Shown in pieces: positions 4,214-59,982 of a stretch of 64,000 nt of DNA (position 1 is the stretch's first letter; each line of letters opens with the position of its first letter). The notes below the pieces were generated by a model. The model ran no database searches. It was not told the DNA's origin and worked only from the letters and a program-made list of their open reading frames with translations. A program made the position numbers and the translations under genes. The stretch is from Chitinispirillaceae bacterium (GTDB lineage Bacteria; Fibrobacterota; Chitinivibrionia; Chitinivibrionales; Chitinispirillaceae): the NCBI GenBank assembly GCA_016929595.1, contig JAFGIN010000113.1, positions 62,001-126,000 of the forward strand. Reading direction: 5' to 3'.

Positions 4214-4951
4214 TCAGAGCATCGCCAGTATGGCATCCATATACTCTGAGATAAAATGGTGCCCTCCTTTGAAAATTATTTGTTCAAAACTGTTACTTGT
4301 CAAATCTGCCCATCGGTTGATCAATGCCTTTGAAACATACTCATCCTCATCCCCACCCAGAGCAATAATCGGACAATTCAGTTGATACCGATGCTGGTAG
4401 GTGTAGGTTTCGTGCAATTTAAAATCAGACCGGCCGATTGGCAGAATAAGTTGCATCAGCTCCTCATTTTCAAAAACCTCCTGTGGCATGCCACCCAGTT
4501 TTTTGAGCTTTTCTTTAAAAATATCATCTGGCAAGTTATGATATGTCTCATCTGCTCTATCAACCTGAGGTGCGTGGTAAGCAGCGACAACTAATCTTAG
4601 TGGTTCAGGCATCTCCTGCTCCTGCAAAAGCATCGCGCATTCATAGGCAATTAGTGCACCCAGACTATGACCAAAAAAGGTAAACGGTTTGTCAAGAAAA
4701 GGCAGCAAGGCTGACACCAATTCCGGTACCAGATCTGCAATGTTCTCTATGCATGGTTCGCTAAAGCGTAATCCCCTACCGGGTAATTGAATTGGCAGAA
4801 AATCGATAGATGGATCTACTTTTCCCAACCAACTCCGGAAAAAAGTAGCATTGGCACAAGCGCAGGGAAAAGCAAAGCACCGGCGTTGTGCTAGCGGATT
4901 TAGCGGTTTATTAGCTAACCAGATATTGCTGCTCAGGGTTTCAATAAACAC
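4214..4951 (-). CDS. Type II thioesterase of the NRPS/PKS operon
   Basis: This 245-residue alpha/beta hydrolase is the length expected for external (type II) thioesterases, which hydrolyse wrong or stalled acyl groups from carrier domains of assembly lines. Visible features are the early FAFPCACANATFFRSW segment typical of the family, the nucleophile motif GHSLG with Ser96, a GGDEDEYV segment near 199-206 that offers the acid (Asp201 or Asp203), and GGHHF with His231 as base. The start is a GTG directly after the NRPS stop codon (TAA then GTG, no spacer), with an AAAGG about 12 nt upstream, so translation is almost certainly coupled to the NRPS. It is the last gene of the PKS-NRPS-TEII operon. 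Function as an editing enzyme is inferred from family and position. Confidence 0.93.
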   Translation of the reverse strand: MFIETLSSNIWLANKPLNPLAQRRCFAFPCACANATFFRSWLGKVDPSIDFLPIQLPGRGLRFSEPCIENIADLVPELVSALLPFLDKPFTFFGHSLGALIAYECAMLLQEQEMPEPLRLVVAAYHAPQVDRADETYHNLPDDIFKEKLKKLGGMPQEVFENEELMQLILPIGRSDFKLHETYTYQHRYQLNCPIIALGGDEDEYVSKALINRWADLTSNSFEQIIFKGGHHFISEYMDAILAML

Positions 4952-7900
4952 TTAGTACAACCTTTCAATAAATAATTTTATATGTTCACTGCAATTTTTT
5001 ACATAAGGGTACAATACCATGTTGGCATGGGTACCAGATACTGTTTGGACTGTAATATTACCAGTTGTAACCATGGTCCATCCCAGCAAACCGTCATCAT
5101 GGCTCAAGGCCGGTTTAAACTCTTCATAGCAGCGATTCAATTCTTCACCGGAAATCCTGTTGATTTTATAATCTTTCACCAGACGCTCGACAAGAAGACA
5201 TCGTTCAAGCCATTCAACATACTCAGTCCCAGATTCCGGGCTGGCTTGCGGACGCAACAAGCAGGCATTATAATGCAGCTTTTTCGGTTTATAGTTCAAA
5301 ACGATCTTAAGATGGATATAGGAAAGCTGTAGAAATCTTTTAAAATCTTCCCGGTTATGATAAAACTCCAGATCTCTGCTTTTTTGCAAAGAATCAATAA
5401 TACGGTTCTTCAAATCAGATTCATTCAAATCTGCCAAAAACTTTAAATTCTGGTTCTGTTGTTTCAGATCGTCAATAAATGTTGCAGCTATGGGTATAAA
5501 GCTGATATCATGGTAACAGCCTTCAACCTTTACGGGGGCCACCGAATCCAGGAAACAAACAAATTCGACCATCTCTCCCCCAGCCTGGAGTTGATTGATC
5601 ATCTCATGCACCACCACACCGCCAAAGGACCAGGATAACAATCTATATGGCCCCTTTGGCTGACGTCTTTTTATCAAATCAATATAATGGGTTGCCATAG
5701 CTTCAATATTCTCATATTGTTCAACCAAACCCAGGCGAATAGGTGATTCGATGGCATAAACCGGCATAACACCCTTCAATTGCAGGGCTAATGGTTTATA
5801 ACACATAGCCGATCCGTCCATGGGATGAATGCAGAATAAAGGATTACCTGTAGTTTGAACTTGCAAGGGCACCAGTGGATCTTGGGGTTCGGTCAATAAC
5901 CTGCTGCCTTCCAGTTGGGTTTGTAATGCAGTAGCCAGACTACCAAGTAATGGTTCATCCAATATCAGCCGATGTGGAATTTTTGCATTAAACTGGTCCC
6001 TCAGTTTTGAAATGACCTGGATAGCCAATAAGGAGTTGCCACCGATTTCAAAAAAATTGTCAGTGAGTCCAACCCGCTCCAACCCAAGCACATCCTGCCA
6101 CACAGCAGCCACTATCTTTTCCAGATCTGTTTTGGGTGCCTCATAATTTTTCCTGTCAACCCATTCCGGTTGGGGCAGGCGACACTTGTCAATCTTTCCA
6201 TTGGCAGTTAAAGGAATCTGATCCATTGCCACCAATGCAGCCGGTATCATGTAATGTGGCAGTATTTGCTCTAGTGCCTGCCGTAAATCATTGTGCGAGG
6301 TCTTCTGATCGCTTGTATAGTATGCCACCAACCGTTTATCCCCTGGAAAATCTTCCCGAACAACAACTATCGCCTGTTTAACTGTTGGCAAATCCATTAA
6401 TGCCGCTTCAATTTCACCACATTCGATTCTGAATCCTCTGATCTTTACCTGATCATCCGCACGGCAGATAAATTCAAGAATACCCTGATTATTCCATCGA
6501 ACAATATCCCCGGTTTTATAAAGCCGGCCAGGTTCAAATGGATTATCTACAAAAAGCTTTCGGGTAAGCTCTGGCTGATTAACATAATATAAAGCCAGAC
6601 CATCACCGCCAATAAATAATTCTCCGGGAACTCCGACCGGAACCAGATTAAAGTTTTCATCCAGCACATAGCAGGTAGTATTGCTTATCGGAAAACCGAT
6701 CGGTAATGTCCGTTCACAGCTGGTCACACCATTAATTTCATACATGGTAGCAAATGTAGTGCTTTCAGTAGGCCCATACATATTTACTAAATGCCGGGGT
6801 TTTCCATTGACCACCACAGCCTTAACCCACTTTGGGTCAGCAGCTTCACCACCAAAAAGCAGATAATCCAAATACTCAAAGGCAGCCGGATGATGAGCTG
6901 CCATTTGATTAAATAAAGCCGTAGTAAGGAACATAGTGGTAATTTGTTTTGCTTTTATGATCCCGGCGAATTGATCCAGATCCAGAACCTCCAGCCTGTT
7001 AAAACCAACAATTGTGGCACCATTCAACAGTGCACCCCACAGTTCAAATGTAGCAGCATCGAAAGACACATTAGACAAATGCGAAACACGATGCTCTGAT
7101 GTTATGCTGATGTAGTTGGTTTGTTTAACAAGCCGCGCTACAGCCTGGTGGGGAATGGCGGCTCCTTTTGGTTTTCCGGTCGAACCGGAAGTAAACATTA
7201 TGTACAAAATCTGGTCGCTGCAGCAGCTCATGCCCGGATTGGCAACTGGTTGTCGGGCAAGCTCAGTGCCAATCTCCACCAGTGCAATTGTTTTTATGGA
7301 GCCTAATGAATTATCGTTTTTAGTGATCACACATCTGGCTTTACTATCATCAATCATCATCCTCAAACGTTCTTTCGGATAACCCGGATCCAACGGTAAA
7401 TAAGCAGCTCCAGCCTTGACAGCCCCGAGGATGCATATAATCATATCCATCGAGCGTTCCATCTCAATAGCCACAACCTGGCCTGGTTCAATCCCCAGCT
7501 TCCCAAGATAGTGAGCTAACTGATTAGCCTTCTTATTGAGCTCCGCATAGGTCAATGAATCAGGACCAAATTCAACAGCTACTTTATCCGGTGTCCGGGC
7601 AACCTGCTTTTCAAACAGGGATTCCAGTCGATTTTTGCCGGGATAATCGGTCCGGGTGTCATTCCAGTCGTGAACCATGACCCTGGCCTGGCGCTCATCA
7701 ATAATGGAAATCGCCGGTAACAACAGTCCCGGGTTCTGCGTCAGAGCTTCCAACAACGTAATAAAGGCATCAGCCATTCGTTCAATAGATGCCGCTTCAA
7801 AAAGATCCGTATTATATTCAAAAATCGCACAATGCTCCTGAGCATAGTCTGCTATAGTAACGGTCAAATCATAATGACTGATGCAGACATCATAGGCCAA

Positions 7901-10900
7901 TGGTTCAATCTGTAAATATTCTTCCACAATGGCCGTTTGCATATGGCTTATCATATTGAATATAGTCTGAAAAACCGGTGAACGACTCACATCTCTTGGG
8001 ATCTGTAAATGATCAACCAGGTTTTCAAATGGCAAATCCTGATTGGCGTAAGCCTCAAGCAATACTTCTTTAACAGAAGACAGTAATTTTCCAAAGGATA
8101 GGTGATGTTCCAGTTTAGTCCTGATAGCCAGCGTATTAACGAAAAATCCCAACATGGACTCTACCTGCTTACGGTTACGGTTTGCAATCGGCACACCAAC
8201 AATAATATCGCGCATCCCACTAAACTTACTCAGTAATAAATTATACGCGGCAAATAACACCATAAATAATGAGGCGTCATACTGTTTAGCCAGGTCTTTC
8301 AAAGAATTCAACAACACCGGTGACAGCACTTTTGTGAAAGTATGCCCATTAAAGGTCTGAGTCATTGGCCTTGGTTTATCCAAAGGTAATTCCAGTACCG
8401 GTAAATCATCACCAAGATGGTCTTTCCAAAACTTTAATTGTTTTGTCAAAACCTCACCCTGCAGCCATTTCCGTTGCCACAGGGCATAATCGGCGTATTG
8501 TATTGCCACTTCGTCCCGGAGAGATACAGTGTTCATGGCCAGGCATTTATACCGGAAAGCCAATTCCTTGACAAACAAATTAATTGACCAGCCATCAGTA
8601 ATGATATGGTGCATATTATAAATAAAAACATGGTCCTGTTCGTTCAACTTAATTAATTGCGTCCGTAATAGCGGGCCCCCATTCAAATCAAAAGTCGTTG
8701 CCGCTTCCATCCTGACCATAACCATGGCATTATCCAGATTATGCTCTATTCCAGATAAATCATGCACTATAAAATGGGCTTGTCTGTCCTTGTGGATAAT
8801 CTGCACTGGTTGATTATCAACTTCGGCAAAGGTGGTCCGCAGTATTTCATGCTGCGCCACCATCTGATCCAGGCTGGTTTGTAATAAGAGCGGTTTCAGG
8901 TCACCTTTGAACCTTACTGCAAAAGACAGATTATAAGCGGTATTCCCCGGTTCCAGTTGGTCAATAATCCATAACCGCTGCTGAGCATAGGACAACGGCA
9001 GTAATTGATTGCGGTCTGCACGGCTGATTTGATCGACCTCTTGCCTGCAGTCGTTCTGAGCAATGACGCCTGCCAGCAACCTGATTTTCGGACATTCAAA
9101 TAATTGCCGTACCGTAACAGTTATACTCAGGTCAGTATAAATTCTGGAAACCACCTGCGTTGCCAGAAGGGAATGTCCGCCGATCTCAAAGAAATGATCG
9201 TCAATACCGACTTTATCAAGACCAAGAACATCCTGCCAAATCTCCACCAATTGTTTCTGTAAATCATTGTGCGGACCTTCATAAGATAAGTCACTCATTT
9301 TGACATTAGGTACAGGCAAGGCTTTTTTATCGATTTTCCCACTGGGAGTAAAAGGCATGTTTTCCAGCACCTCAATATGTGCAGGTATCATATACTCCGG
9401 TAGATCCCGACTCAAAGCCTTTTTGACTCCGTTTTCATCATAAGCCAGTTTGTCATGCAGAATGACATACGCTATCAGTTGAATCCGATTATTCTGATCC
9501 TTGACACCTTTGACTACGGTAGTTCTAATATTTTCCAATTGATTGAGTTTTGCTTCTATCTCTTCAGGTTCCACCCTGAATCCGCGAATCTTTATCTGCT
9601 CATCACCTCTCCCAATAAAAGCCAAATCCCCGTTTTCCAGCCAACGCACCATATCACCGGTACGATAACAGCGTTCATCCTCCAAAACAATGAATCGTTC
9701 TTCTGTCAATTGCGGTTGGTTAACATATTTTTTAGCAAGACAAACCCCTTTAATCAGTAGTTCACCGGCAATTCCCGGGGGAACCGGTTTTAATTGTTTA
9801 TCCACTACCAGGCATTTCGTATTAGCAATCGGTTTACCAATAGGCGGATGATATGGCCATCTACTACTGTCTCCACTCAAATGATAGCTGGTAACCACAT
9901 GAGATTCGGACGGACCATAATGATTAAAACATTCACATTCCGGCAATGATTGAAAAAAGGTAGTTACTGCCGGCGTCATTTTAAGCACGTCACCTGCTGT
10001 GATGACTTCTTTTAAGGATGCAGGATAAAGTTTCATGACGATTGCCTGTTCCGCCAGATAATGCAACGCTATGGCTGGTAAAAAAAGGCGGTTCACCTCT
10101 CTGTGCTGCATCAGCTGTATTAATTGACGAAAATCTTTTCTATCATCTTCACTTGTCATAACGAGTGTCAGACCACCTGCCAGAGTTGAGAATATTTCCT
10201 GAAATGATACATCAAAATTGATTGATGCATATTGCAAAACCTGCTTACTTGGACTGTTTTTAAACTGCTCCAATTGCCATTCAATTAAATTACTCAACGC
10301 CCGGTGGGACATTTCGATGCCTTTTGGCCTACCTGTGGAACCGGAAGTAAAGGTAATGTAAACAGACTCATTCAATGTTACAGCATTATCAGGGTTGAAC
10401 TCTTTTTGATCAGCCAGTTCAGTGGTAATCTTATCATAGAGTACCAGTTCGGTCTGGTCCGCAGGTACTATTGATGCCAATGCGGATGTAGTTACCATCG
10501 TTTTGACCTGTGCATCTTCTATCATACCCTGAAGACGCGCTTTGGGATAATGATGATCAAACGGGACGTAAGCTGAACCACTTTTTAAAATGGCCAGTAA
10601 TGCAATCACCATAGAATTACTGCGTGGCATGCATAAACCAACAGGCCCCGGCTTTTTCGTTATCATTAGATAATGCGCCAGCTGGTTGGCCCTGACATTC
10701 ATTTGTTTATAACTCAATTCTTCATGATCATCAAGAAGAGCCACAGCATCAGGATTAAGAACTACCTGGTGCTCCACCAATGCATGTACAGAATGCCTGG
10801 GATACTGGATTATGCTCGTCGTATTCCATGCAGCCAATCTAAGTTCATCCTGCTTTCTCAATAATGAAAGTTGATCGATCATCATGTCGGGACGACTGGT

Positions 10901-13900
10901 CATCTGTTCCAGTATCATAATGAGGTAATCCAACATAGACTGTATCGTAGATGCCTTGTATAAATCAGTATTGTATTCAAAACTGCCAGTAAAACACTCC
11001 TCCTTTTCCTGCATACTTAAAAGTAACTCAAAATGTGTTGTTTGAGTTACCAGGTTATACGGAGATAACAACACCTGATCATGTTTCATATTATAATCAG
11101 GATTATTCTGTAAAACAAACATGGTCTGGAAAACAGGTGAACGGCTCATATCACGGACAGGCTGAATTTCGTCAACCAGTTTTTCAAAAGGCAAGTCCTG
11201 GTGAGCATAGGCACCCAGACAATATTGTTTAAGCTGTTTGAGATAATACTGGATCGTTTGTTTTTGATAAAATTCACTACGTATAGCCAGTGTATTAACG
11301 AAAAATCCGATTAAGGTTTCTATTTCTGCCCGGTTGCGATTGGCAATTGGTGTTCCGACAATGATGTCTTCCTGACCTGTGATCTTATGTAACATCAACT
11401 GGTAAGCACCCATGAGCACCATAAATGGTGTTAAATCAAGCTGTCTGCCCAATCTTTTAACTGCCTGGCTCAGAGCAGGAGTCAATGTTACATCCTGGGT
11501 TCTTCCTTTAAAGGTCTGAACTTTGGGCCGTTCATAGTCCGTTGGGCATTCCAGCACCGGTAAGGACCCTTTTAAGCATTCTTTCCAGTATGTTAGTTGT
11601 TTTTCCATACCTTCGGCCTCTAACCATTCACGTTGCCATTTACTAAAATCGGCATATTGAATTGGCAGCTCTTCAAGGTATTTGTTATCATAGCCATCCA
11701 TTAATTCCTTTACCAATATCCCGACAGACCATCCATCGCTCACAATATGGTGCATGACCAGCATAAAAATGTATTCTTCTTTTTGCAGTTCCAGTAAATA
11801 GGCCCGTAAAAGCGGTCCGTTTATCAAATCAAAAGGTTTCTTTATTTCTTTCTGCAAATACTCCTGCGCCAGATTTTCTGATATGTCGTTCTGGATTTGA
11901 GCCATACAGTTATAATGAATTGATAGTTGCAAGTAGTCGGCAATAGCCTGATATGGTTGATTATGTGCTATCTTAAATGACGTGCGCAAGACTTCATGCC
12001 TGGCAATAATGCGGTTAAGGCTGGCTTCCAGTTTTACTAATTCCAACGGTCCATTAATCCTGACTGCCAACGGTATGTGATAAGCCGTATTCCCGGGTTC
12101 CAATTGTTCAATAAACCATAAGCGCTGCTGGGCAAAGGATAATGGTAAATACTGATTCCGTGATACTTTTGTAATCTCACGATAATGTTTTGCTTCAAGA
12201 GTGGCAATAAAATCAGCACAACCGGCAATGGTGGGTTTTTCAAAAAACAGACTGACCGGCAGATCCACAGCCATTTCCTTTTTAATTCTGGAAATGACCT
12301 GTGTGGCCAGCAAGGAATGTCCACCGATTTCAAAAAAATTATCATCCGTACTTATCAGATCTGTCCTGAACACATCTTTCCATATAGTAACCAGTGCATC
12401 TTCGGTTTCTGTCCGCGGTTTAACAATAGTTCTAGTCTGCTGCCAATCCGGCTGTGGCAGAGCCTTATAATCGACCTTTCCATTAGCCGTCAGCGGAATA
12501 TGGTCAAGTTGCACGATCTGAGAAGGTACCATATTGACGGGCAGTTTTTCTTTTAAGGCACCAAGCAATTGCCGGCAATCGATATCCTGTTCTTCTTTTG
12601 CGGTCACATAAGCGGTCAATTGATCCTGGTCAAGCAGATCCTTTTTCAGGCATACAATCGCTTGACTGACTGAATCATGGGCTTTAATGACCACTTCAAT
12701 TTCACCGGGTTCAATGCGAAATCCCCTGATTTTTATCTGGCCATCCAACCTGCCCACATAGATTAATTTCCCAAGCTTATTCCATTTAACCAGGTCACCG
12801 GTCTTGTATAGTCCTGACAAATGCATGTCAATAGGATTATTGATAAATGCCATACTGGTTTGTTCTCTATTATTTTTATAACCAAGAGCTACACCATCGC
12901 CACCGACATATAACTCTCCCACCACTCCAACAGGTAAAAGATTTAAATGCTGATCCAGTACATAACAGCTTGAGTTGGCAACCGGCCGACCGATGGGAAT
13001 ACCGGCTTGATCATCTGACAATATATCGATCTCTTCGTACGATGAGATAACCGTATTTTCAGTAGGACCGTACGCATTAATCAAATGGCAGGGTTTGCCA
13101 TGGTATAAAATGTTTCGTACAGCATGTGGATCCGCTTTTTCACCTCCAAAAAGAACCGTCTCCATGTCAGAGAAAACAGAGGGAGATATAGCAGCCATTT
13201 GATTAAAAAGTGCTGTAGTAGGCAACATGGCAGTGATTTTATCCTGTTTCAGCCTGGTGGCAAATAACTCTATGTTCAGCACGGTTACTTTGTCATAGAT
13301 CACCAAACTGGCACCATTCAATAAGGCCGACCAGATTTCCCAGGTAGATGCATCAAACGCCGGATTGCCAATATGAGCAATACGGTCTTTTTCTGTAATG
13401 GACATATAATTGGTGTTTACAACTAATCGGCTGATCCCCTGATGAAGGATCTGAACTGCTTTAGGTTTACCAGTAGAACCTGAAGTAAACATAATACATG
13501 CCGGATGAAGCAAATTTGCCGGTAAGTCCAGATTGTCCGAAGGACATGCCGATAGAGATGCACTCAATTCATTAAGATGGACTGACAGCATTGAATCCTT
13601 TACCCCTATGTCAAGCCCTGATTCTGTAATAACAACTTCTACTCCGGCATCTTCAAGCATACTACCCAGACGCTCTCTGGGATAACCGGGATCAAGCGGC
13701 ACATAACTGTTATTGGTCTTTAATACCGCCAGCAGAGAGACAATCATATTGAGGGATCGCTCCATGCAAAGGGCAATTGCACCGCCTTCACATACACCCT
13801 GTTCCCGTAAATAACAAGCCAGCTGATTAGCCCGGGCATTAAGGGTTTTGTAATCCATTTTTGTATCACTGTACTGCAGGGCTAAGCGATCAGGCCATTT

Positions 13901-16900
13901 AGCCGCTGATTCCTCCACTAATGCCTGCAACGTTTTCTCTTTTGGATATATCCTGGCCTGGGCTTGCCATATGGTTAATTGCAAGTCTTTTTCTGCTTCC
14001 GTCACTACATCGATACAGTTAACTGTCAGAGAATCGTTTTGACAAATAGTTTCAAGTATGCGGACATACGTCAGGGCGAACCGTTCGATGGTCAATTGTT
14101 CAAAAAGATCGGAATTGTATTCCAGTGATCCCTGCAAATTATTATCGTGGCCTTCAATGATGGCACACGTTAAATCAAAATGAGCAATCCCCATATCAAG
14201 ATCGTGCATGGCTACTTTAACTGCACCGACGTTCACTTCCGGCATAGGTGTATTTTGTAGTACAAACATTGTCTGGAATAAAGCAGAGCGACTGGTGTCG
14301 CGTTCCAGGTTCAAAGCCTCAACAAGCTTTTCAAAGGGTAAATCAATATTGGCATAGGCATCCAGTAATGTAGCCTTGGTCCGTTTCAACAAGTCCTTTA
14401 TCTCCATGCCTGGATCTATCTGGGTTCTTATGGCCAGGGTGTTTATAAAACAGCCGATCAGCGGTTCCAATTCAGTCCTATCGCGATTGGCAACTGGTGT
14501 ACCCACAACCAGATCGTTTTGATTGCTGAATTTATTTAACAAAATATTATACGCTGTCAAAAGTACCATATATATAGTCGTTTCTGTTCGTTCTGCCAGC
14601 TGGTGAAGCGCTGTAGTTAAGCTGGGTGCTATATTGAGTGATACAAGACTGCCATTGAAAGTCTGGTTACGGGGGCGAGGAAAATCAAGTGGCAACTCCA
14701 ATACCGGGCACTTACCACTGAATTGTGTTTTCCAGTATATCAACTGTTTTTCATGTTTCTCCTGCTGAAGCCATGCTTCCTGCCAGACGGCATAGTCGAC
14801 ATACTGGACAGGTAATTGCGGTAACGGCCGGTTATCCAAAAGGTGCATCAGTTCTTTAATAAAATTACTGTTAGACCAGCCATCGGTGATAATATGGTGC
14901 ATACAAAGCAGAAATACATACTGCTGTTGACCGGTTTTAAATAAATAACTTTTAATCAACGGCCCCAGTTCGAAGTCAAAGGGTGCTCTGGCAAGGTCAT
15001 TGATTAATTGATTTTGTTTACATTTAGACAATTCCGAGATATTTCTCTGTTCCAATGCTAAATAAAAATCATCCCGAATAACCTGCATGACCCGATCATC
15101 CTGCATGGTGAAAATGGTACGGCAACTCTCATGACGGCTGACAATAATATTCAATTTTTCTTCAAGTACATTAGCATCAACTTCACCGGTCAATTTTACA
15201 GCCAGAGGAACATTATAAGCACCAGAACGTGGATCGAAGCGCTGAATAAACCAAAGCCGTTTTTGTGAATAGGATACAGGCATATACCGATGACGCATTG
15301 CTTTAGGGATAATTTCATAATCCTGCTTTTGTTTTTGTTCCATGCAGGCAGCCAATTCGGCAATACTGGGATGTTCAAAGATCGTGCGAATAGCCAGATC
15401 CTGTTTTAAACGGCTTCGAATTCTAGCCATAAGCTGGGTGGCCAAAATGGAATGACCACCGATCTCAAAGAAATTATCATGAATGCCAACCCTGGGTACA
15501 CTTAAAACATCCTCCCAGATAACGGCCAGATTTTTTTCCAAGTCTGTTCGGGGTGCAACAAAAGTAACCTGTTTTTCCCAAGCCGGTAGCGGTAATGACC
15601 TGCGATTGATTTTTTTATTATTGGTCAAAGGCATCTGTTCCAGAAAAACAAAAGCAGAAGGCACCATGTAATCAGGCAGGCGGGATTTCAGATGATCTCG
15701 AATAGACGTTTTTTCATCTTCCTGAGGGCCAACCAGATAGGCCACCAGTTGCTTATTCCCCGGCCGATCTTCTCTGACCATGACCACTTCCTGGTTTACA
15801 CCGGAGTAATCATGCAACACAGCTTCAATCTCGCCCAATTCGATTCGATAGCCGCGTATTTTCACCTGAGAATCAAGACGCCCGATAAATGCTATACGTC
15901 CGTCTTTCCGGAAAAAACCAGCATCGCCGGTCCGGTAAAACAGGCCCTGATGAAGAGTTGAGAATCCAGGTTTGACAAAGCTTTTTTCCGTTAGTTCCGG
16001 GCGCTTCAGATACCCGCATCCCACACCCAAACCTCCTATCATTATTTCGCCGGCCACTCCAATGGGCAAAGGGTACAGGTTTTTATCCACCACATAAATT
16101 TCCGTATTCGCAATCGGCCGCCCGATAGTAAGCTCATCACCAAGCACCTGTTCAGCAGCTGACCAGACAGTTGATTCTGTGGGCCCATACATATTCCAAA
16201 CTTCCCGGGTCAATGACTGCAAGCGTTTGGCCAGCCATTTAGGGAAAGCTTCCCCTCCGCAAAGCACTTTCAGGTTCTTTTTGCCTCTCCAGCCCGACTG
16301 CTCCAGCATAGCCCAGGTTGACGGAGTCGCCTGCATAAAGGTAATATCACCCGTCTCTAGCGCCTCAATGATTTTTTCCGGCACCATAGCATCCTCTCTG
16401 CCAATTACATAAATGGTACCGCCACAGAATAAGGGTAAGTACAGATCGGGTACAGACAAATCAAATGAGGCCGTAGTAGGATTAAGCAAGCGGTCATCCT
16501 GGCTGAAACCTGGACATGCCTGCATAGAAAACAGTAAATTAACCACATTGGAATGCGCAATTTGAACCCCTTTCGGTACTCCAGTAGAACCGGAGGTAAA
16601 CAGCACATAGCACAGGTTTGAAGGATCAACTGCAAAGCCCGGGTTCTCAACCGGCTGGTTAGCCAAAATGTTCAAGCTATTATCAAGAACAATAGATTTT
16701 ACAGAGTCTGCAGAAGAAATTGATGCCATATCAAACTCCTCCGTGGTCACCATGACCTTCAGCCCTGCCTCCTGCACAATTGTCTTTAACCGCTCTGGCG
16801 GAAAAGATGGATCAAGGGGAACATAGGCGGCTCCGGTTTTTAACACACCCAACAGGGCAATCCATAATCGTTCCGTGCGATTCATGTATAATCCAACCAA

Positions 16901-25900: not shown

Positions 25901-28900
25901 GTCTTGTTTTAATGATTCCAACAGATTGATCACATTCCGGTGCTCAATCTCCACACCTTTGGGTCTCCCGGTAGAGCCGGAAGTAAAAAGTACATAGGCA
26001 CGATCGGCTGACGAATGCACTGCCGGGAACTCGGTGTGCGGTTGTCGCTCTATTTCGTTAGCCTCAATATCAAGTAAAACAGGTTTTACTGATCCAGTGT
26101 GACTTACAAGATCGATTAATTCCTGTGTGGTGATAATGTACTTCAGTCCTGCCTCTTCAATGATCATAGTCAGGCGATTTTTCGGGAAATAGGGATCAAG
26201 CGCGACATAAGCACCGCCGCTTTTAAAAATACCCAGCATAGCAATTAACAGCTGGGGACCCCGATGAAGACACAGGCCGACTAACTCATTCTTCAGTATT
26301 CCCTGTGCCTGAAGATAATACGCTAGACAATTCGCTTTTTGATTGAGTATTTCATAAGTCAGAGTTAGTGATTGATATTGCAGAGCAATAGCCTGCGGTG
26401 TCCGCCTGACTTGCTTCGTTATCAACTGATCTATTGTTGTATTCCTGGGATAATCCATACCGGTATCATTCCAGGCTACTAACAACTGTTCTTTTTCTTT
26501 ATAGCTTAACATGGATATGCTATCAATACCAACGGTCCGATCTTTGACTACTGCGCGAGCAATGGCCTGATAGTGCTCAACCAGCCGGGCAATGGTCCCG
26601 ATCTTGAACAGATCTTTCCGAAACGTCACTTTACCTTTCAGGGGGTGAATACCTTCAGTTAACTCAAAAGTTAAATCAAAATGGGATAGGCCAATATCCC
26701 TTTCCATAACCGTGGCGGTCGCCCCTGGCAGAGATAAGTCGGGCATAGTTTTATTCTGCAGCGAAAACATCACCTGGAATATGGGATTTTGGTTTAATTG
26801 TCGATCCGGCTGCAGCTCGTCAACCAGCATATCGAAAGGTACATCCTGGTTCTGGTAGGCTTGCAAAGCAGTCTTCTTGACAACACTAAGATATTCTTTG
26901 AAGGATTGCCGTCTGTTTATCTGTGTACGGACGACCAGTGTATTTACAAAAAAACCGATGAGCTGCTCCGACTGTCTGTTATTCCGGTTTGCAATGGGTG
27001 ACCCCACCAGAATATCTTCCTGACCGGAATAAAAATGAAGCAGTACTTTAAACAGGGCAATAGTTAGCATATAGAGGGTAACACTTTCCTGCTTCGCCAG
27101 GTCCTTCAATTCCTGACAAAGTAGCGGATCCAATTCAAAAAAATAAGTCGCCCCCTCATAGCACATTTGCTGTGGCCGTTTGTAATCATAGGGCAATTCA
27201 ACCGGAGTCAAGGAACCACCTAATTGCTGTTTCCAGTAGGAGAGTTGCTTTTGCATCAGCTCACTTTCAATTGCCTGCTTTTGCCAATAGGCAAAATCAT
27301 GGTACTGGATGCTTAATGGCGCCAATGAAGGCACACGGCCGGCCGCCAGCTGGCCATAGAGCAAAGAGAGTTCATTTAGAAAAATACTAATAGACCATGC
27401 ATCGGAAACAATGTGATGCATGGTAAACATTAAGTAATGGGTATCTTTACCGGCATTTATCAAGTAACTACGCACAAGCATGTCCTGCGACAGATCAAAT
27501 GGCTTTCTGGCTTCTCCCATGATAAATGCCGATAATTGATCTGCATCTGTTATAATGCGCTGTTCCAGGATGGTATCCGCCATTGGTCGTTTCTTTACTA
27601 TTGGCATACCGTTTTGTTCAACGAAAACAGTATGCAGGCCCTCATGCCTGCTGATAATCGTCGTAATCGCGGTTTGCAACCAGTCGGCTTGTACAGAACC
27701 GTCTAATCTGATAACATACGGAATATTATAGACGGGGTTATTTGGTGCCAGCTGTTCGATAAACCATAAACGCTGCTGAGAAAAAGAAAGTGGCACAGCT
27801 TCGGTCTTTGGCATCGGACTGATTAGTGCGGCTGCTTGTTTGACTTGCTGTATTTCTTTCTCCAAAGCTCTGGCCAGCGCTGCAATGGTGGGATGCTCAA
27901 AAACCATCACCAGTGGCAGCTCCAGTCCCCATTCCACGCGGATTCTCGAAAACACCTGCGTCGCCAGAAGGGAATGACCGCCGATTTCAAAGAAATGGTC
28001 ATCAATACCAATTTGTTCGTGATCCAAAACCTCCTGCCAGATTGTGACCAGTTTTTTCTCAATGGTGGTTTGTGCTGCTTTGTAATGATATTCCGACTGG
28101 AAAGTCGGTACTGGTAAGGCCTTCCGGTCTGTTTTTCCATTAATGGTCAATGGCATTTTATCCAGATGAATGATGGCTGCCGGTACCATATAATCAGGCA
28201 ATTTGGTTTTGATAAAACGACGTAGTTCATCATGATTTAATACTGTTTCGCAGATGTAATAAGCGGCAATTTTCAAATCACCATGTTTATCCTTAACAGC
28301 CGTAACAGCCGCTTCACTGATAAGCTCGTGTTCCAATAAGCGGGATTCGATTTCCCCCAACTCAACCCGAAAACCCCGCAACTGGATCTGATTATCTATG
28401 CGGCCCATATAAATCATCTCTCCACCAGGCAAGCGTTTGGCCAGATCGCCTGAACGATAAAGCGTTTCCCCTGATCTGTAAGGATTATCTACAAATTTAC
28501 CTATTGTCAACTCTGGACGATTTAAGTAACCCCGACCCACACCAGCCCCTCCGACACATATTTCTCCAGCCACACCGATCGGTAATAGTTGCTGCATTTC
28601 ATCCATTATGTAGGTTTTTGTGGTTGGTATCGGAAGACCAATGGTATTTACATTCTGGTCGATTTCTCGCTCAGTGATTTCTTTATAAGTCACATGTACA
28701 GTGGTTTCGGTAATGCCGTACATATTGATCAGTTTGACTTTGGAATAACGCTTGCGCCAGGCCTGCAACTGAATAGGTGTTAGAGACTCCCCACCAAAAA
28801 TGATCATTCGCAGTGCTAATTCCTGCGTGCCACTGAGTAGCACCGGTATCAACTGATAAAAAGCAGATGGGGTCTGATTGAGAATGGTCACCCGCTCTTG

Positions 28901-31066: not shown

Positions 31067-31070
31067 TGTG

Positions 31071-31075
31071 TTCCT
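31071..31075 (-). promoter_or_regulatory. Ribosome binding site deciding the NRPS start
   Basis: AGGAA lies four bases before the ATG at 31066. The upstream in-frame ATG at 31096 has no comparable purine stretch, so the shorter N-terminus (MDIKCTTEL) is preferred. Confidence 0.6.
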
Positions 31076-31099
31076 ATTTTCCCCGGGTCGTCCCATTTG

Positions 31100-34000
31100 T
31101 TACTTGCTTAATTCTTCCGCCAATAAAGCATCCAATGCGGCTTCATCCATTTCATCGATTTGCTCCATAACTATCTGATCAAAATATGGAGACAGTTGAT
31201 CCATCAGTTTACTGCTCAGCTTACTAACTGATGGACCATTCATAAGCTCCATCATACTTAATTCCAGACTGAGTTCCGATTTTAATCTTCTTGACAAATC
31301 AAGTGCCATCAACGAGTCTACACCATAGTTCATAATATTTTCATTACGTTGAATGCTTGTTTCAGGCATATTGGCGACCTGGCCGATGACTCCGGTTATT
31401 TTTCCTTCTATACTTTTCAATCGTAGTGCTTTGTCCATAGGAGCAAGTTCTTCCAGATAAGCTGACACCTTCTCATTAAACCGATTAACAGTCCTGGAAA
31501 AATGCGCAAATAAAGGTAATACTGCTTGTTTAGAATTCTGTTCAAACCAGGTGCCCCAATCCACATCGAAAACACCTGCCTGGGTTAAATCAAGTGCCAG
31601 CGCACAATCCAGTGCACGTAAAGCTTGCTGGTTGCTAAAGCCCTTGAGCCCGGTATGTTTGAGAACCATTGCTACTTCCCTGTTTCTTGTTAATACTCCG
31701 GTTTGGGCCAGTACCCCCCAGTTAATTGTTGTTGCCGTTTTGCCTTGCTGTCGCCGAATCCTGGCCAGGTCATCCAGGAATGCATTGGCAGCGGCATAGG
31801 CTGCCTGACCCGGATTCCCAATCAGGGAAGTAATGGATGAAAACATCACAAAAAAATCCAGATTGAATTGGGTTGTAGCAGCATCCAGATTAAGGGCCCC
31901 TTTAATTTTGGGATCCATAACATGCTGCAATTGCTCATTGGTGATATTCTTTAAATAAGAGTCTTCCAGTATCATGGCACTATGGATAATACCTTTTAGC
32001 GGCTTACCCGTATTGTTGCATGTCTGAATCATGTGCTCTACCGCTTTTTCATCACTCACGTCCACAGCCATTACCGATACTGATAATCCTTGACTAAGCA
32101 TACATTCTACTGCCTGCTTAATTTCCAACCGTTTATCACCGCTGCGGCTGGCCAGCAGCACGTGACCAGCCCCCTTTTCGGCAAGCCATCTCGCTACCTC
32201 CAAACCAAAGCCGCTGGTTCCACCGGTTACGATGTAACTACCCTGGCTATTTACAATCGACATCTGCTTTTTAGCTATTACTGGCAACATATTATCCATG
32301 GTGATCAGAATTTTATGTATGTTATCAGAATCATTCATTTGAGCTATGGCTTCATTCAATTTAGAGAAGGGAAATACCTGCATCGGCAAAATCAGATTTT
32401 TCTGTTCAATTACAGCAGCCATATTCTCGATAATTTTTCGTCCATCCTCAGGGTGCTCCTCCAGCAACCATTTGAGATTCAACAAATGCAACGATCCATT
32501 TTTCCTGGCCAGATTAAGCGGAGCAGTCATCCCTATCAACTGTTTTTCATGAATGACATGCACCACTTTTCCAAACGGCCGTAAAGCCGCTATCAGCTTG
32601 TCATCCAGTTGATCGGGATGACAATGAATAATCACATCAGCATGGCCCCAAACATGCGGACGGTGCCTTTCGGCAAAAGTAATACCATCTATTCCGCTAA
32701 AATATCGTTTCTCATCATCATGACTGATAAAAGCTGTTATTTCTGCACCTGATAATTGACCAATATAAGCCGCTGCCACACCAGTATCAGTGGCCGCGCC
32801 GGTAATAAACAGCTTATCTCCAGCTTTCAGTCTGGCGCACTCCAGCAGTCCGTAAGCTGCCATCATCATTGACATGCTAAAAGGTTGCCTGTTTTCTATT
32901 TTGTTTACTACTTTACATACGTAACAACATGGCACATTTATAAATGTTGCAGGACTGCAGGGGTAAAATACGCAGACTTCATCTCCTATTGTCAGTCCAG
33001 TCACCTTGCTGCCAACAGCGGTGATGGTTCCGGTGAATTCGCTACCAAACCTGTACGACTTTTCATCCCCCGACTGCTTATCCAGGGTGAAGCTTGCTAA
33101 TTTAACTTCAACTTCATCATCGGAGGGCAGGATACGCTCAGCGGACTTAAAGTACAGCTGTTTGGATTCTGGCTGGTCAACCAATATCAATTGCTGATCC
33201 CTGGAAATCATTTTTATTTCTTCATCCCTTTCCACTGATTGTTGCAATGGTTTCAGGCGATGAACCAGGCGCATGTTTTTTCTGAGGATGACTTCCTCAT
33301 TCAATACCGGCTGTCTTAACTCATCCCACAGCTGCTCCAGTTGTTCTTTTTCATCCATGTCACTATCAAGATCAATCAATTGACAGGATAGCTTTTCGAA
33401 TTCACTTCGCATTACCCGAATAAGCCCCCAAAGCGGAGAACCTGCTAATGCAGTGACAGAGGCTTCTTTCGAACTATGCAAGCCGATGGTAACCACCGAG
33501 AGTTTGGCAGGCATATCATTATTAGCTTGTATATAATTGTGAAGCCAGTCAATAACCTGCTGACAGCCGCTGACCATACGATCATACAAACTACCGGGTT
33601 GAAGTTCCCTTGTTGCCTGTCCAATCAGCAGAATTGTGTGATCTGTAGCCTGCGGCGGATTACTTTCCCGGAGAGTATCCCAGCTTGCCCGGGTTAAATC
33701 CGATTGAATGAGTGCTTTTATCATTACATTCTCTGCATTGCCTTTTCTGATCAGTCCGTGCCCCAGCGCTGTATCCGAATGGATTAACAACCACGCCTGA
33801 TTATCGGCTTTTACCTCCTGCTGAGGCCGTTTTTTCTCCTGCCATGTCCATTCATAGAACCATTCCTGCGACAATGCCTTTTCTTCCTGATGCTCCTGCT
33901 TCAAATGCTGACAGGTAATACCAAGAACTTCTGCAGTAACCCGACCCTGTGAATCGTAAAGCACAGCATTTCCTTTTAGAGCCTTGTCATTTTTCCAAAG

Positions 34001-37000
34001 TAAGGAGGTCCAACCGTATGCCGGCAGAGATGGACGTCTATATAAAATTAATCGATCAATAGCTACCGGAATAAAGGTTTTGTTTTCCGAATCCCTGCCC
34101 TGTTCTTTTTCAACCACAATTAGTGATTGAAATAATGCATCCAATAAAGTGGGGCCAAAAAGATAACCATCCTTCTCATCTGGAAGAACTGATGGTTCCA
34201 GTCTGATCAATACTTCCCGATCTCCCCGGTTAATGGCTTTAATAGGTTTAAAAAAGGGCCCGTAGTTCAGTTGACGGGTCGATAGTTTTTCATAAAAGTT
34301 TTCGACATTTAACTGTTCCCGGCAGCGACCTATGATATTGTCAAGTAAACCCTTGCTTTCAGGTACCTGAATCATTTCAGTGTTCAGGTCAAGTGTAGCA
34401 TGATGAAGCCAGGGCGCCTGTTCCTCCAGGGTGGTGCTGTAAAGTTCTACTCTTCTTGTTAACCTGCTGTAACTTATATGTAGTCGCTGCACACTTTCCT
34501 CATTCAGACTTAACACCTGATGAAAGTGGATGTTTTCCAGAGCCATAGGCCATTGCCGGTTAATCTGCTCAGCTACTGCCAACCCAGCTTCCACATACAT
34601 GGCACCCGGAACAACCACATGGCTACCTATACAATGATCATTTAAATAGGGTATCTGATGCTCATTAAGGTCTATCTCCCAGGCTGGCTGAGGCCCAAAA
34701 ACCTTCCGATTGAGAAAGCGATGACCTTTCTGTCCAAAACGGTAATTGCTCAAAGCTTCGGATTCAAACCAGTAATGCTCACGCTGCCAGGGATAGGTCG
34801 GCAGTGCCAGCATTGGAGCATCCGGGTTGATCTGATGCTCCCAGTTAAGAGAATACCCTAATTGATAGAGCGTACCAACTGACTGAAAAAAACTTTCCAG
34901 CTCCGGTTTTTTCCGGTTTAGAGTGGTAATTAACTGCCCCTCTTTATTTTCTGATGTTAACTCAGCCTGAATGGACTGCGCAAGCACCGGATGAGGCCCA
35001 ACCTCCAGAAAATGAAAATAGCCCGCACCCATTAATGCACGAATGCCCCTCTGGAAATGAACCGGTTTACGAACATTTTCCCACCAGTAACTGGCATCTA
35101 TTCTTTGTCCACCTATCCGACCCCCGGTTACAGTGGAATAGAGGGGTATAGCTTCCTGTTGCGGATGTAATCCCGCCAGAACCGCCTGCAGTTCTTCTTT
35201 AATCGGCTCCATTTGCCTGCTGTGAAAAGCCACTTCGACATTTAACAACCGATTAAACTGTTGGTTTTCCGTTAAATAGGCACTTAATTTATCCAGATCC
35301 GCCTTATTACCGGATATTGTCACACTCCCGGCACTGTTAACGGCTGCCAGATCCAAATCCAGATTAAGCTTCTTGAACAACTCTAATACATCTTTTTCTG
35401 GCATATTAACAGCCAGCATACCACTATCAGGACTGGCTTTAGTCTGCTGCAACCGGCTACGATGATAACAGACTAAAAGGGATTCTTCCAGGCTAAGGAC
35501 ACCGGCAACATGCACAGCGGCGACTTCACCTACGCTATGCCCGATAATAGCATCAGCCCTGATTCCCCATTCTTCAAGACAGGCTGTCAGGGCCACCTGC
35601 AATACAAAATTAGCCGGTTGAGCAACCTGCGTCTCGTGCATGCGCGATGCAGCTACATTTTCCAACATGGCATTTTTGATGGACCACCCGCTGATAGCGG
35701 TAAATAATTCATCACATTCATCCACCTTATGCCTGAACGTTGGCATACTTTCATATAATTTACATCCCATACCTGGCCATTGCGGTCCCATACCCGTAAA
35801 GACCATCACCAATTTTTTATCCTGATCAATGTTTTTGGGATCCGGTCCAAGGCCTTTAGAAATTGCTTGCAATTGTTTAATTAACGTGCTTTTATCCCTT
35901 GCTTGAATAAAACTTCTCACGTTCTGATGACTGCGATGCCTACAGGTTGTCTTTACAATAGTTTCTAATATTCCCTCACCAGGCTGATTACATAAATAGT
36001 CCTGCCATTTTCCGGCCATGGATTTTAACGCCGGTAGGCTTTGGGCTGATATCGGTAATAAAACATCAGTTTCCCGCCCGAAAGCATAATTACTAACTGG
36101 AACCTCGTTATCCTGGGCTGCCTGTAGCAGTATATGTGCATTGGTTCCACCGTATCCGAAAGCGTTGACGCCAGCAAAGCGTTCTTCCTGATCAGGCCAG
36201 TCCATTAACTCGGTTGGAACGTTAAAACAATACTGGTCAAAAGGTATTTCCGGATTAGGAGTTTTAAAATGGAGATTGCCAGGAATCTTTTTATGCTTCA
36301 AACACAAGGCTGCTTTAATGATTCCAGCCATCCCGGCGGCCGCTTCCAGATGTCCCATATTCGTTTTTACCGAACCTACCCATGCTTTTTGCCTGCGTTT
36401 ACCCTGGTCATTTAATACGGCATGTAATGCTTCTGCTTCGGCCCTGTCACCGGCTTTGGTTCCAGTTCCATGCGCTTCGATATAATGAACATCACTGGGC
36501 TTTACCTTTGCCTGCTGATAAACATTTCTTATTAACGTTTTCTGAGCTTCGGGGTTGGGTAATGTTAACCCGGGTGTCTGACCATCCTGATTTACACCGG
36601 TACCACGAATCAGCGCATACACCGGTAATCCTTCTTCCTGAGCTTTTTTCAGTGGCTTGATAAGAATAACAGCCGCGCCTTCACCACGTGCATACCCGGA
36701 AGCTCGTTCGTCAAAGGTCATACACCGTGAATGATCGGATAAAAACTGACCCTTGCTAAGCCCGATGGAATTGGATGAACTGGTCATAACATTAGCTCCG
36801 CCAACCAACACCATATCGCTCTCACCACTCCAGATACTCTGACAGGCATAATGAGTAGCTACCAGAGATGATGAACAAGCAGTATCAATAGTTAAGCTAG
36901 GCCCTTTTAAATTGAAAACATATGATAATCGGTTAGAAAGCAGTGTCAGTGTAGCACTCATTGGAGAATGAGAACTAGCAACAGTAATGTTCAAAGAGCA

Positions 37001-37417
37001 GAACTGATTAATCTGATGATCCAGCCAGAAACCACCTATAAACACACCTGTATTGGATCCGGACAACTGCTCATTGGTAATACCGGCATTTTCAAAAGCT
37101 TCCCAGGCCACTTCAAGTAGCAAGCGCTGCTGGGGATCCATGATCCGGGCTTCACGCGGAGAAATACCAAAAAATAGAGGATCAAAAAGTTCAATATCTT
37201 CCTGCAGGAACCCACCTTGAAAATTGTAGGCTTTCCCTTTTTTGTTTTTATTGGAATCACAAAACTGGCGCCAATCCCAGCGTTTTTCAGGAATATCTAC
37301 CATTGCGTCTCTTTTATTTTTCAACAGATCCCAGAATTTTTCAGAATCGGAGGCACCGCCAGGAAAGCGGCAACCTATACCGATAATAGCTAATGGTTCT
37401 TTTTTCATTCTGTTCAT
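31100..37417 (-). CDS. Type I polyketide synthase, single reducing module KS-AT-DH-ER-KR-ACP
   Basis: A 2105-residue PKS that should extend an acyl starter by one malonate-derived unit (or act iteratively) and pass it to the NRPS. KS (about 8-430) has Cys near residue 182 in DTACSSS, plus EAHGTGT and KTNMGHLEAAAG. AT (about 540-850) has GHSVGE near 628 and a VAFHS motif that fits malonyl-CoA. DH (about 890-1170) has DHCIGSHVVVP, with Ser at the usual Gly position, and LLDALFQ. An ER-like part (about 1430-1710) has an altered nucleotide motif, TGAATDTGVAA. KR (about 1720-1900) keeps GGTSGFG and the Ser/Tyr pair (SSITS, AAYAAAN). The ACP Ser is near 2035 in GVDSLMAL. There is no loading domain. 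The start is ATG 37417 with AGGAG just upstream. It is the first gene of the operon, ending three bases before the first possible NRPS ATG. Confidence 0.95.
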   Translation of the reverse strand: MNRMKKEPLAIIGIGCRFPGGASDSEKFWDLLKNKRDAMVDIPEKRWDWRQFCDSNKNKKGKAYNFQGGFLQEDIELFDPLFFGISPREARIMDPQQRLLLEVAWEAFENAGITNEQLSGSNTGVFIGGFWLDHQINQFCSLNITVASSHSPMSATLTLLSNRLSYVFNLKGPSLTIDTACSSSLVATHYACQSIWSGESDMVLVGGANVMTSSSNSIGLSKGQFLSDHSRCMTFDERASGYARGEGAAVILIKPLKKAQEEGLPVYALIRGTGVNQDGQTPGLTLPNPEAQKTLIRNVYQQAKVKPSDVHYIEAHGTGTKAGDRAEAEALHAVLNDQGKRRQKAWVGSVKTNMGHLEAAAGMAGIIKAALCLKHKKIPGNLHFKTPNPEIPFDQYCFNVPTELMDWPDQEERFAGVNAFGYGGTNAHILLQAAQDNEVPVSNYAFGRETDVLLPISAQSLPALKSMAGKWQDYLCNQPGEGILETIVKTTCRHRSHQNVRSFIQARDKSTLIKQLQAISKGLGPDPKNIDQDKKLVMVFTGMGPQWPGMGCKLYESMPTFRHKVDECDELFTAISGWSIKNAMLENVAASRMHETQVAQPANFVLQVALTACLEEWGIRADAIIGHSVGEVAAVHVAGVLSLEESLLVCYHRSRLQQTKASPDSGMLAVNMPEKDVLELFKKLNLDLDLAAVNSAGSVTISGNKADLDKLSAYLTENQQFNRLLNVEVAFHSRQMEPIKEELQAVLAGLHPQQEAIPLYSTVTGGRIGGQRIDASYWWENVRKPVHFQRGIRALMGAGYFHFLEVGPHPVLAQSIQAELTSENKEGQLITTLNRKKPELESFFQSVGTLYQLGYSLNWEHQINPDAPMLALPTYPWQREHYWFESEALSNYRFGQKGHRFLNRKVFGPQPAWEIDLNEHQIPYLNDHCIGSHVVVPGAMYVEAGLAVAEQINRQWPMALENIHFHQVLSLNEESVQRLHISYSRLTRRVELYSTTLEEQAPWLHHATLDLNTEMIQVPESKGLLDNIIGRCREQLNVENFYEKLSTRQLNYGPFFKPIKAINRGDREVLIRLEPSVLPDEKDGYLFGPTLLDALFQSLIVVEKEQGRDSENKTFIPVAIDRLILYRRPSLPAYGWTSLLWKNDKALKGNAVLYDSQGRVTAEVLGITCQHLKQEHQEEKALSQEWFYEWTWQEKKRPQQEVKADNQAWLLIHSDTALGHGLIRKGNAENVMIKALIQSDLTRASWDTLRESNPPQATDHTILLIGQATRELQPGSLYDRMVSGCQQVIDWLHNYIQANNDMPAKLSVVTIGLHSSKEASVTALAGSPLWGLIRVMRSEFEKLSCQLIDLDSDMDEKEQLEQLWDELRQPVLNEEVILRKNMRLVHRLKPLQQSVERDEEIKMISRDQQLILVDQPESKQLYFKSAERILPSDDEVEVKLASFTLDKQSGDEKSYRFGSEFTGTITAVGSKVTGLTIGDEVCVFYPCSPATFINVPCCYVCKVVNKIENRQPFSMSMMMAAYGLLECARLKAGDKLFITGAATDTGVAAAYIGQLSGAEITAFISHDDEKRYFSGIDGITFAERHRPHVWGHADVIIHCHPDQLDDKLIAALRPFGKVVHVIHEKQLIGMTAPLNLARKNGSLHLLNLKWLLEEHPEDGRKIIENMAAVIEQKNLILPMQVFPFSKLNEAIAQMNDSDNIHKILITMDNMLPVIAKKQMSIVNSQGSYIVTGGTSGFGLEVARWLAEKGAGHVLLASRSGDKRLEIKQAVECMLSQGLSVSVMAVDVSDEKAVEHMIQTCNNTGKPLKGIIHSAMILEDSYLKNITNEQLQHVMDPKIKGALNLDAATTQFNLDFFVMFSSITSLIGNPGQAAYAAANAFLDDLARIRRQQGKTATTINWGVLAQTGVLTRNREVAMVLKHTGLKGFSNQQALRALDCALALDLTQAGVFDVDWGTWFEQNSKQAVLPLFAHFSRTVNRFNEKVSAYLEELAPMDKALRLKSIEGKITGVIGQVANMPETSIQRNENIMNYGVDSLMALDLSRRLKSELSLELSMMELMNGPSVSKLSSKLMDQLSPYFDQIVMEQIDEMDEAALDALLAEELSK

Positions 37418-38156: not shown

Positions 38157-39704
38157 TTACCTCCATTTAATTACAGGATCTACAAAACCAGTATAATCTA
38201 TTTTCAATTTTTTAATTTTGTACCGGATCATGCGGCTTGTATACCCAAGCTCTTTTGATGCGACAGATACATTTCCATGAGCATGCTTGAGCGCATCGGT
38301 GATTGCATCCTTTTCCAATGAAGAAATTCGTAATTTCAAATTCCCCGGAATAAAAGCCTCTTTACTTCCAGGTATCTGCAATGTAGCAGGAAGATCGTAA
38401 CCATGAATGACCTCTTTATCACTTACGATAACAGCATGTTCAATACAATTTTCGAGCTCTCTGATATTACCAGGCCAGTGATATTCCATAAGCATATTGA
38501 TCGCGGCAGTAGAAATTCTTCGAACAGATTTAGATAGTTTTTGAGAAAACTTGATAACAAAATGGTTAGATAAAGGAAGAATGTCTTCCTTACGTTCACG
38601 AAGTGGTGGAACGTAAACCGGAAAAACATTAATCCGATAATATAAATCACTCCTGAACATCTGACTTTTGATAGCATCTTCCAGATTACGGTTTGTAGCA
38701 GCAATGATCCGTACATCTGATTTAATAGTTCGATTTGAGCCAACACGTTCAAATTCCCGCTCCTGTAAAAACCTTAATAGCTTTACCTGAATGGAGTGTG
38801 ATATTTCACCTATCTCATCTAGAAATAGTGTACCCCCCCCAGCCTCTTCAATTCTGCCGATTCTTGAGGATAAGGCACCTGTAAATGATCCTTTTTCATG
38901 CCCAAAAAGTTCACTCTCCAGCAGATTCTCATTGAGCGCTGCACAGTTTAGTTTAATAAATTTTTGTTCTGATCGAGGTGAACCATAATGTATTGCTGAC
39001 GCAATCAATTCCTTTCCGGTTCCGGATTCGCCTCTGATAAGTACTGTCGTATTTGTTTTACTTACCAAATGAATCTTAAGATATACATCCCTGATCGACT
39101 TTGAATTTCCTATAATATTTTCAGGCTTGAAACTGTCTCCCAGAGCATCTCTCAACCGTAAAATTTCATCTTCCAGGACATCTTTTTCAAGTTTTGAAAC
39201 CCTTCGCATTTTAACATCATTTGCAATCATACCAGAAACAATGGTAAGTACCTTGAACTCATCTGTAAGATTAAGATGAAGTTCACATGGAATATCAATT
39301 GAAAATGTACCGACAATCTCATTTTCGATTTTTATCGGTACACATATAAAACTCCAATCACCACCAGCAACCTGTCTGCGTCGGTGAATTCTGTCCCTAA
39401 ACTGTGGTTCTTCAGAAATATCTGGAATAATAGCCGGTTCACCTGTTGCTACAACCTGCCCGACAATCCCCTCACCACGCATATACAGCACATCTTTATC
39501 TATCCTAATAGCAGAAGAAGAATTCACAGCTTCAATGGTAAGAATACTCTCATCCTTTGATAATAAAAGAATTGTTCCACGCATATAGGATAACTGCTTT
39601 TCAAGTAATATCATAATATCCATAAGCATCTGCTTCTGACCGGTATTTGCCGCAAGAATCTTTGAAACAAGTGATAATGTTTCAATCTGCTGGATATATC
39701 TCAT
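38157..39704 (-). CDS. NifA-type sigma54-dependent transcriptional activator (GAF-AAA+-Fis HTH)
   Basis: A 515-residue enhancer-binding protein that should open promoters bound by sigma54 RNA polymerase using ATP. An N-terminal GAF sensor (about 1-165) is followed by a short coiled linker, then an AAA+ domain with Walker A GESGTGKE (225-232), GSFTGA (272-277, where GAFTGA is usual), Walker [12 protein letters not shown] (290-300) and the [14 protein letters not shown] segment (350-363). The C-terminal Fis-type helix-turn-helix (about 465-505) resembles that of NifA. There is no phosphoreceiver domain, so input should come through the GAF domain or protein contacts. Start ATG 39704 has AGGAG just upstream. 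It lies 114 bp downstream of the enzyme I gene and directly upstream of the PKS-NRPS operon, making it the prime candidate regulator of both. Whether it is true NifA cannot be said; no nif genes are here. Confidence 0.92.
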
Positions 39705-42116: not shown

Positions 42117-42304
42117 ATTCTTCCGGATCCATTCGCTCAGGTTGGTATTACGTCCAAAGCCATATGCAAATACCATACCATAACTGCACCAATTAACGGT
42201 TTGCTCATGGCTTCTTCATCCGTAAAAAAACACAGCATTTCGCTTCAGAAAAATAGTTCAATTACTGGTGGTGAGCTGATGTTTGGGGACTTCAACCAAA
42301 AAAA

Positions 42305-59768: not shown

Positions 59769-59964
59769 GATTTTTCCTCTTTTTTTGTTAAATAGTTACC
59801 TAAAACTGCTTTATTGGAAAAGATTCAGGATAAGAATCCTACGATAATTTCGGGAGGAAAATATACTATTGACTTCTTTTTCTGCAACAAAAAAAAATTT
59901 TCTGAAAAAATGTAAAATTTCTCACTATGTTAAAATAAACAATTATTATATTTTATTTTTTAAA

Positions 59965-59971
59965 AAGGAGG
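59965..59971 (+). promoter_or_regulatory. Ribosome binding site deciding the response-regulator start
   Basis: AAGGAGG lies 11 bases before ATG 59983. The longer frame start at 59869 is a TTG that would add a Lys-rich tail unlike any receiver domain. Confidence 0.7.
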
Positions 59972-59982
59972 CTGCACAGATT

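Follow-up and report, generated by a model that had tools for sequence, protein, structure and literature searches.

A three-gene hybrid PKS-NRPS operon predicted to make an N-acylated octapeptide in a member of the Chitinispirillaceae

In the mycosubtilin/iturin-type and cyanobacterial hybrid assembly lines, as generally known, a PKS module hands its acyl product over to C-A-T modules in collinear arrangement, with a terminal thioesterase (TE) at the end and a type II TE alongside. In the fusaricidin class of cyclic lipodepsipeptides, also from general knowledge, an N-acylated Thr1 is able to close a ring. The operon analysed here is built like the former, and its predicted product would share the N-acylated, potentially ring-closing Thr1 of the latter. 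It spans 33 kb (4214-37417) of the window, i.e. the whole stretch of 64,000 nucleotides that was analysed, and consists of three abutting genes:

31100..37417, minus strand: type I PKS, 2105 aa, one module KS-AT-DH-ER(degenerate)-KR-ACP
4952..31096, minus strand: NRPS, 8714 aa, (C-A-T)x8-TE by Pfam and motif counts
4214..4951, minus strand: type II (editing) thioesterase, 245 aa (P0003), a stand-alone Pfam Thioesterase match with GHSLG

Architecture of the operon

The ORFs are separated by 3 bases (PKS/NRPS) and 0 bases (NRPS/thioesterase), as the near-zero spacing over 33 kb of the original prediction had it, and the contiguity of the minus-strand PKS, NRPS and TE ORFs together with their Pfam domains upholds its call of a hybrid PKS-NRPS operon. 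The type I PKS module ends in an ACP, and a C domain comes next within the same operon. The domain matches score too high for chance to matter; neither an exporter nor E or MT domains appeared among the operon's Pfam domains. The NRPS frame runs without a break, on a contig of 132 kb in an assembly of 6.6 Mb (224 contigs, 95% complete), and may well start at the second ATG (aa 11), which is preceded by AGGA. The NRPS is divided as follows:

27737..31096, minus strand: module 1, C-A-T, code DFWNIGMVH, Thr
24617..27736 (boundaries approximate), minus strand: module 2, C-A-T, code DMVQFGMVY, glycine-type clade
21467..24616, minus strand: module 3, C-A-T, code DVQFIAHVV, Pro
18347..21466, minus strand: module 4, C-A-T, code DLPQLGMVW, probably Gly
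15227..18346, minus strand: module 5, C-A-T, code DLPQLGMVW, probably Gly
12092..15226, minus strand: module 6, C-A-T, code DAWLLGAVI, Leu-like
8942..12091, minus strand: module 7, C-A-T, code DVQFIAHVV, Pro
5927..8941, minus strand: module 8, C-A-T, code DAFFLGMTF, Ile/Val
4955..5926, minus strand: terminal type I thioesterase, nucleophile Ser in SWSFGG

Each of the eight slices of the NRPS gave Condensation, AMP-binding, AMP-binding_C and PP-binding matches well above the Pfam cut-off, with a Thioesterase match closing the last one, so that the protein has the repeated C, A, T order, the intact core motifs and the C-terminal TE of a modular NRPS with a type I TE. The HHxxxD, A3 core and GG[HN]S carrier motifs are present exactly eight times each and there is, therefore, no separate epimerase. 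The eight C-A-T modules in a single protein that had been predicted are thus confirmed, and so are the terminal TE and the type II TE, through the Pfam matches at the NRPS end and in P0003. As judged from motifs, the C domains after the first start with LCL-like SxxQxRxW sequences and no dual E/C motif was seen in any C domain of the NRPS; the first C domain is divergent (27-30% identity to the others). Modules 4 and 5 are the closest paralogues in both their A (61% identity) and C domains (56%), and A domains 3 and 7 (51%) form a further such pair, a pattern that suggests duplication of modules within the gene.

Predicted product, substrates and acyl chain

It is fairly probable that the three genes form a collinear hybrid line whose product is an N-acylated octapeptide. 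In this reading the PKS module would accept an acyl starter supplied from outside the operon and add malonyl, and the KR and DH would act next to a degenerate ER to leave a 2,3-unsaturated acyl thioester, which the divergent first C domain would couple to Thr. Modules 2-8 would then add, with no epimerisation step, Gly (or a Gly-type residue), Pro, Gly, Gly, Leu (or a Leu-like residue), Pro and Ile/Val; release of the finished chain would fall to the TE. We infer the substrates, the double bond, the all-L configuration and the collinearity from the domains, motifs and codes observed. The type II TE would remove misloaded groups from the carrier domains. These would be primed by an Sfp-type PPTase encoded elsewhere in the genome, where a single ACPS-family match over the cut-off was found, a 235-aa Sfp-type enzyme; no MbtH was found in the genome (assembly 95% complete).

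If release is cyclic, a Thr1-Ile8 lactone would be expected, since the N-terminus is blocked and the hydroxyl group of Thr1 is the only predicted side-chain nucleophile. For Thr-Gly3-Pro2-Leu-Ile the residue masses add up to 692.386 Da; the predicted lactone would weigh this plus the acyl ketene, and the acid a further 18.011. Release as a linear acyl-octapeptide acid has a substantial chance, short of being probable: for most solved structures the similarity to this TE is confined to its first ~130 residues, and hydrolysing and cyclising TEs are matched alike, whereas the combination of an acylated N-terminus and a nucleophilic Thr1, as generally known, is common in cyclic lipodepsipeptides and speaks for the lactone. 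Taking all predicted features together, we put forward only tentatively, as a possible product, a new, all-L, Pro/Gly-rich octadepsipeptide scaffold Thr-Gly-Pro-Gly-Gly-Leu-Pro-Ile/Val, capped with a 2-enoyl group and cyclised via Thr1, which would be the first lipopeptide-type compound of its bacterial class.

The substrate codes, obtained for all A domains by HMM alignment, agree at the modules with those first read by eye. The code of module 1 is identical to the one for Thr in a cyanopeptolin synthetase (DFWNIGMVHK; PMC2533009), and that of module 8 is one residue off the one for Ile/Val in this cyanopeptolin operon (DAFFLGVTFK; PMC2533009). Modules 3 and 7 match the Pro code of iturin (DVQFIAHV-K; PMC2866473) and carry the V236 and Q239 signature of Pro (PMC12283262). 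What the original prediction assigned as Thr, Pro, Pro and Ile/Val is therefore in accordance with published codes. In a tree of A domains, modules 3 and 7 are sisters (support 100), modules 6 and 8 share one small clade (support 86), and modules 2, 4 and 5 group together as a single clade (support 99) within the DILQLG set; because modules 4 and 5 served as query in collecting the sequences, the sample is rich in Gly-type domains, and some inner forks are weak. The code of module 6, DAWLLGAVI, is one that we take to be Leu-like, from general knowledge and from the clade shared with module 8, and this is the least certain of the branched-chain calls.

Glycine has been reported for DILQLGMIWK (PMC12283262) and for DILQLGVI (PMC5466765), and modules 2, 4 and 5 are read as glycine-type because their single clade lies in the DILQLG group. 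Modules 4 and 5 probably load Gly, as had been guessed and as their position in the tree now makes firmer. Module 2, whose code was confirmed and whose residue had been left as X, is most likely glycine-type, with less certainty than the other two. Our literature search rendered no published substrate for the exact codes DMVQFGMVY and DLPQLGMVW, and the residues at positions 236 and 239 (M-V and L-P) differ from the I-L usual in Gly codes, so that the pocket may be changed. It is nevertheless somewhat unlikely that the three modules load a residue other than glycine, e.g. Ala or a small non-proteinogenic one, given that seven of the nine code positions fit Gly-type codes (DILQLGMVW; DIVQFGMIY) and that the clade falls inside the Gly-type group.

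With regard to the acyl part, the PKS gave Pfam matches for KS, AT, DH, KR and ACP, and comprises the following domains:

36119..37399, minus strand: KS, active-site motifs DTACSSS, EAHGTGT and NMGHLEAAAG present
34880..35806, minus strand: AT, GHSVG and VAFH motif
33884..34723, minus strand: DH, HxxxxxxxxP and DALFQ motifs present
32303..33100, minus strand: degenerate ER, ALNFRD-bearing segment missing, TDTG for GGVG, no PF00107 match
31706..32242, minus strand: KR, active-site Ser, Tyr and Asn present
31214..31402, minus strand: ACP, GVDSL

The AT, with its GHSVG and VAFH motifs, is presumably of the malonyl type. Aligned with three relatives, the ER has lost the ALNFRD stretch, carries TDTG instead of GGVG and shows a second deletion. 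PF00107 gives 67 bits for the intact ER of relative G037 and 82 bits for that, also intact, of a PKS on contig C15 of the genome analysed here, while the operon PKS (P0001) has no match; PF13602 and PF08240 score under the cut-off in the operon ER. The reducing PKS module of the original prediction hence stands as far as the KR and DH are concerned, which look intact, but the degenerate ER, without PF00107 match and key motifs, means that it is not fully reducing. It is because of this combination that we expect an acyl cap with a 2,3 double bond.

There is neither a loading domain nor an acyl ligase in the operon. The lack of a loading domain, the full reducing-type domain set of the PKS and the fact that its two closest full-length relatives of the same order (G035 and G037) adjoin no NRPS or PKS partner would fit iterative action of the kind found in stand-alone highly reducing PKSs, with a whole longer chain being built before hand-over to the NRPS. 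We regard this as unlikely, since iteration with a degenerate ER would yield a polyene and not a fatty chain; a single extension of an external starter remains our preferred reading.

Genomic setting

Directly upstream of the PKS lies a sigma-54 activator gene (38157-39704, minus strand) that encodes NifA, preceded in turn by a gene (39819-42176, minus strand) for a PtsP-type protein (GAF and PTS enzyme I), a component of the nitrogen PTS. An 82%-identical nifA of a relative (G018) is located directly upstream of nifH-nifI1-nifI2-nifD-K-E-N-B (names given from reading the proteins, with nifH by TIGR01287). The genome's own nif operon is on another contig (C77, L178), and no nifA was found in 20 kb of surrounding sequence. 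The PKS-NRPS operon thus occupies the spot beside nifA where G018 (L168) has nifH, which suggests a rearrangement or insertion between the two genes. Control of the operon by the adjacent NifA was considered and rejected as unsupported: four nifH genes have upstream sigma-54 sites with scores of 13-14, located at -65 to -76 (the genome's own nifH at -65), whereas no -24/-12 match ahead of the PKS scores higher than 10.5, which is below the shuffle 95% level of 11.5. NifA is ordinarily a nitrogen-fixation gene and not evidently a cluster regulator. Read-through transcription from nifA into the operon is possible; no terminator-like site was seen between nifA and the PKS on the minus strand.

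A foreign or chimeric contig in this metagenome-type assembly, and hence a wrong host, is very unlikely: the operon has a higher G+C content than its flanks (44% vs 39.8%) and assembly contamination amounts to 3.6%, but high G+C is also found in the neighbouring PtsP gene (47.9%), and the contig carries a TIGR02147 protein as well as PtsP and NifA proteins whose best relatives, 60% and 82% identical, respectively, belong to the same family. TIGR02147, a family that takes its name from Fibrobacter succinogenes, has at least 47 copies in this genome (63 candidates seen) and is present in 30 of 40 members of the class (40 species from a single order) and in none of 14 control genomes. This marker suggests a host in the Fibrobacterota, probably in the class Chitinivibrionia. 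A similarly strong expansion of the family is observed in some relatives, and a genus of small genomes (g5) has no copies at all.

Elsewhere in the window there are a 2846-aa secreted-looking protein with repeats and a subtilase motif set (GHGTHCSG, GTSMATPH; 42451-50991, minus strand), and a membrane sensor kinase (57120-58991, plus strand) near a LytTR-like response regulator (59869-60741, plus strand); the gene that separates the two is unrelated and on the minus strand. Five more NRPS/PKS-type loci were found in the same genome, on contigs C134 (L044-L046), C15 (L047), C199 (L048-L049), C170 (L050) and C116 (L051). Among them are a PKS-NRPS system on C134 whose A domains carry the Gly-type code DILQLGMIW and, on C15, a PKS of 2825 aa that has methyltransferase, ER and TE domains.

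Comparison with known systems

Among 168 genomes of the phylum, only three others have relatives of the PKS beyond E=1e-150 (33-39% identity), and no NRPS lies next to them at the two inspected (G035 and G037); a scan of genome contigs with the entire PKS as query gave no relatives. The PKSs of G035 and G037, from the same order of bacteria, stand alone and are 37-39% identical, with the domain order KS-AT-DH-ER-KR-ACP found here. The G037 ER retains its PF00107 match and that of G035 the segment missing from the operon PKS. Other ORFs with a module 4-like A domain in 40 genomes of the class have at most 2996 aa, compared with 8715 here.

A search of public genomes (84,980 species; 79 loci kept) rendered nearest A domains of the module 4/5 type that are 38-49% identical among the matches listed, and the same module order was not found within the fetched flanks of these loci, again among the matches listed; the best plasmid match was about 40%. 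A counterpart of the entire assembly line was thus absent from the matches listed. The 49% value corresponds, among the matches listed, to a Planctomycetota MAG (L058). The DILQLG glycine A domains of NRPSs from Moorena bouillonii, Anabaena and Caballeronia (L055, L056, L063-L064), among the closest named matches listed, are 43-47% identical to that of module 4, but have other module orders and codes around them. No peptide with Pro-Gly-Gly-Leu-Pro was described in the open literature searched, nor did that search find a lipopeptide with the order of residues predicted here, in agreement with the original prediction; the one lipopeptide that it did retrieve, Gly-Gly-Leu-Pro from Brevibacterium aureum, was discarded as a biosurfactant of the tetrapeptide type.

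According to a 2024 survey, Fibrobacterota are among the cluster-rich phyla, and 48.6% of their clusters from glacier streams were novel (PMC11834409). That the lineage is little explored for such compounds, as had been claimed, holds true: hardly any natural products of this lineage have been characterised, and the operon contributes a large three-gene line that is intact and has clear limits. As it comprises three genes, lacks tailoring enzymes and comes from a genome in which no MbtH was found, it would be a simple candidate for heterologous expression, and its DLPQLGMVW and DMVQFGMVY codes would extend specificity tables.

Set against the mycosubtilin/iturin-type and cyanobacterial lines, the operon is devoid of an acyl ligase, an aminotransferase and an MT in the PKS, and has all eight modules in one protein, another residue order and no epimerases. 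From the fusaricidin class it differs in residue order, length and the absence of E domains, and ring closure is here a prediction. The assembly line as a whole is probably undescribed and its product probably new, its parts being of well-known kinds, and its biochemical logic is standard.
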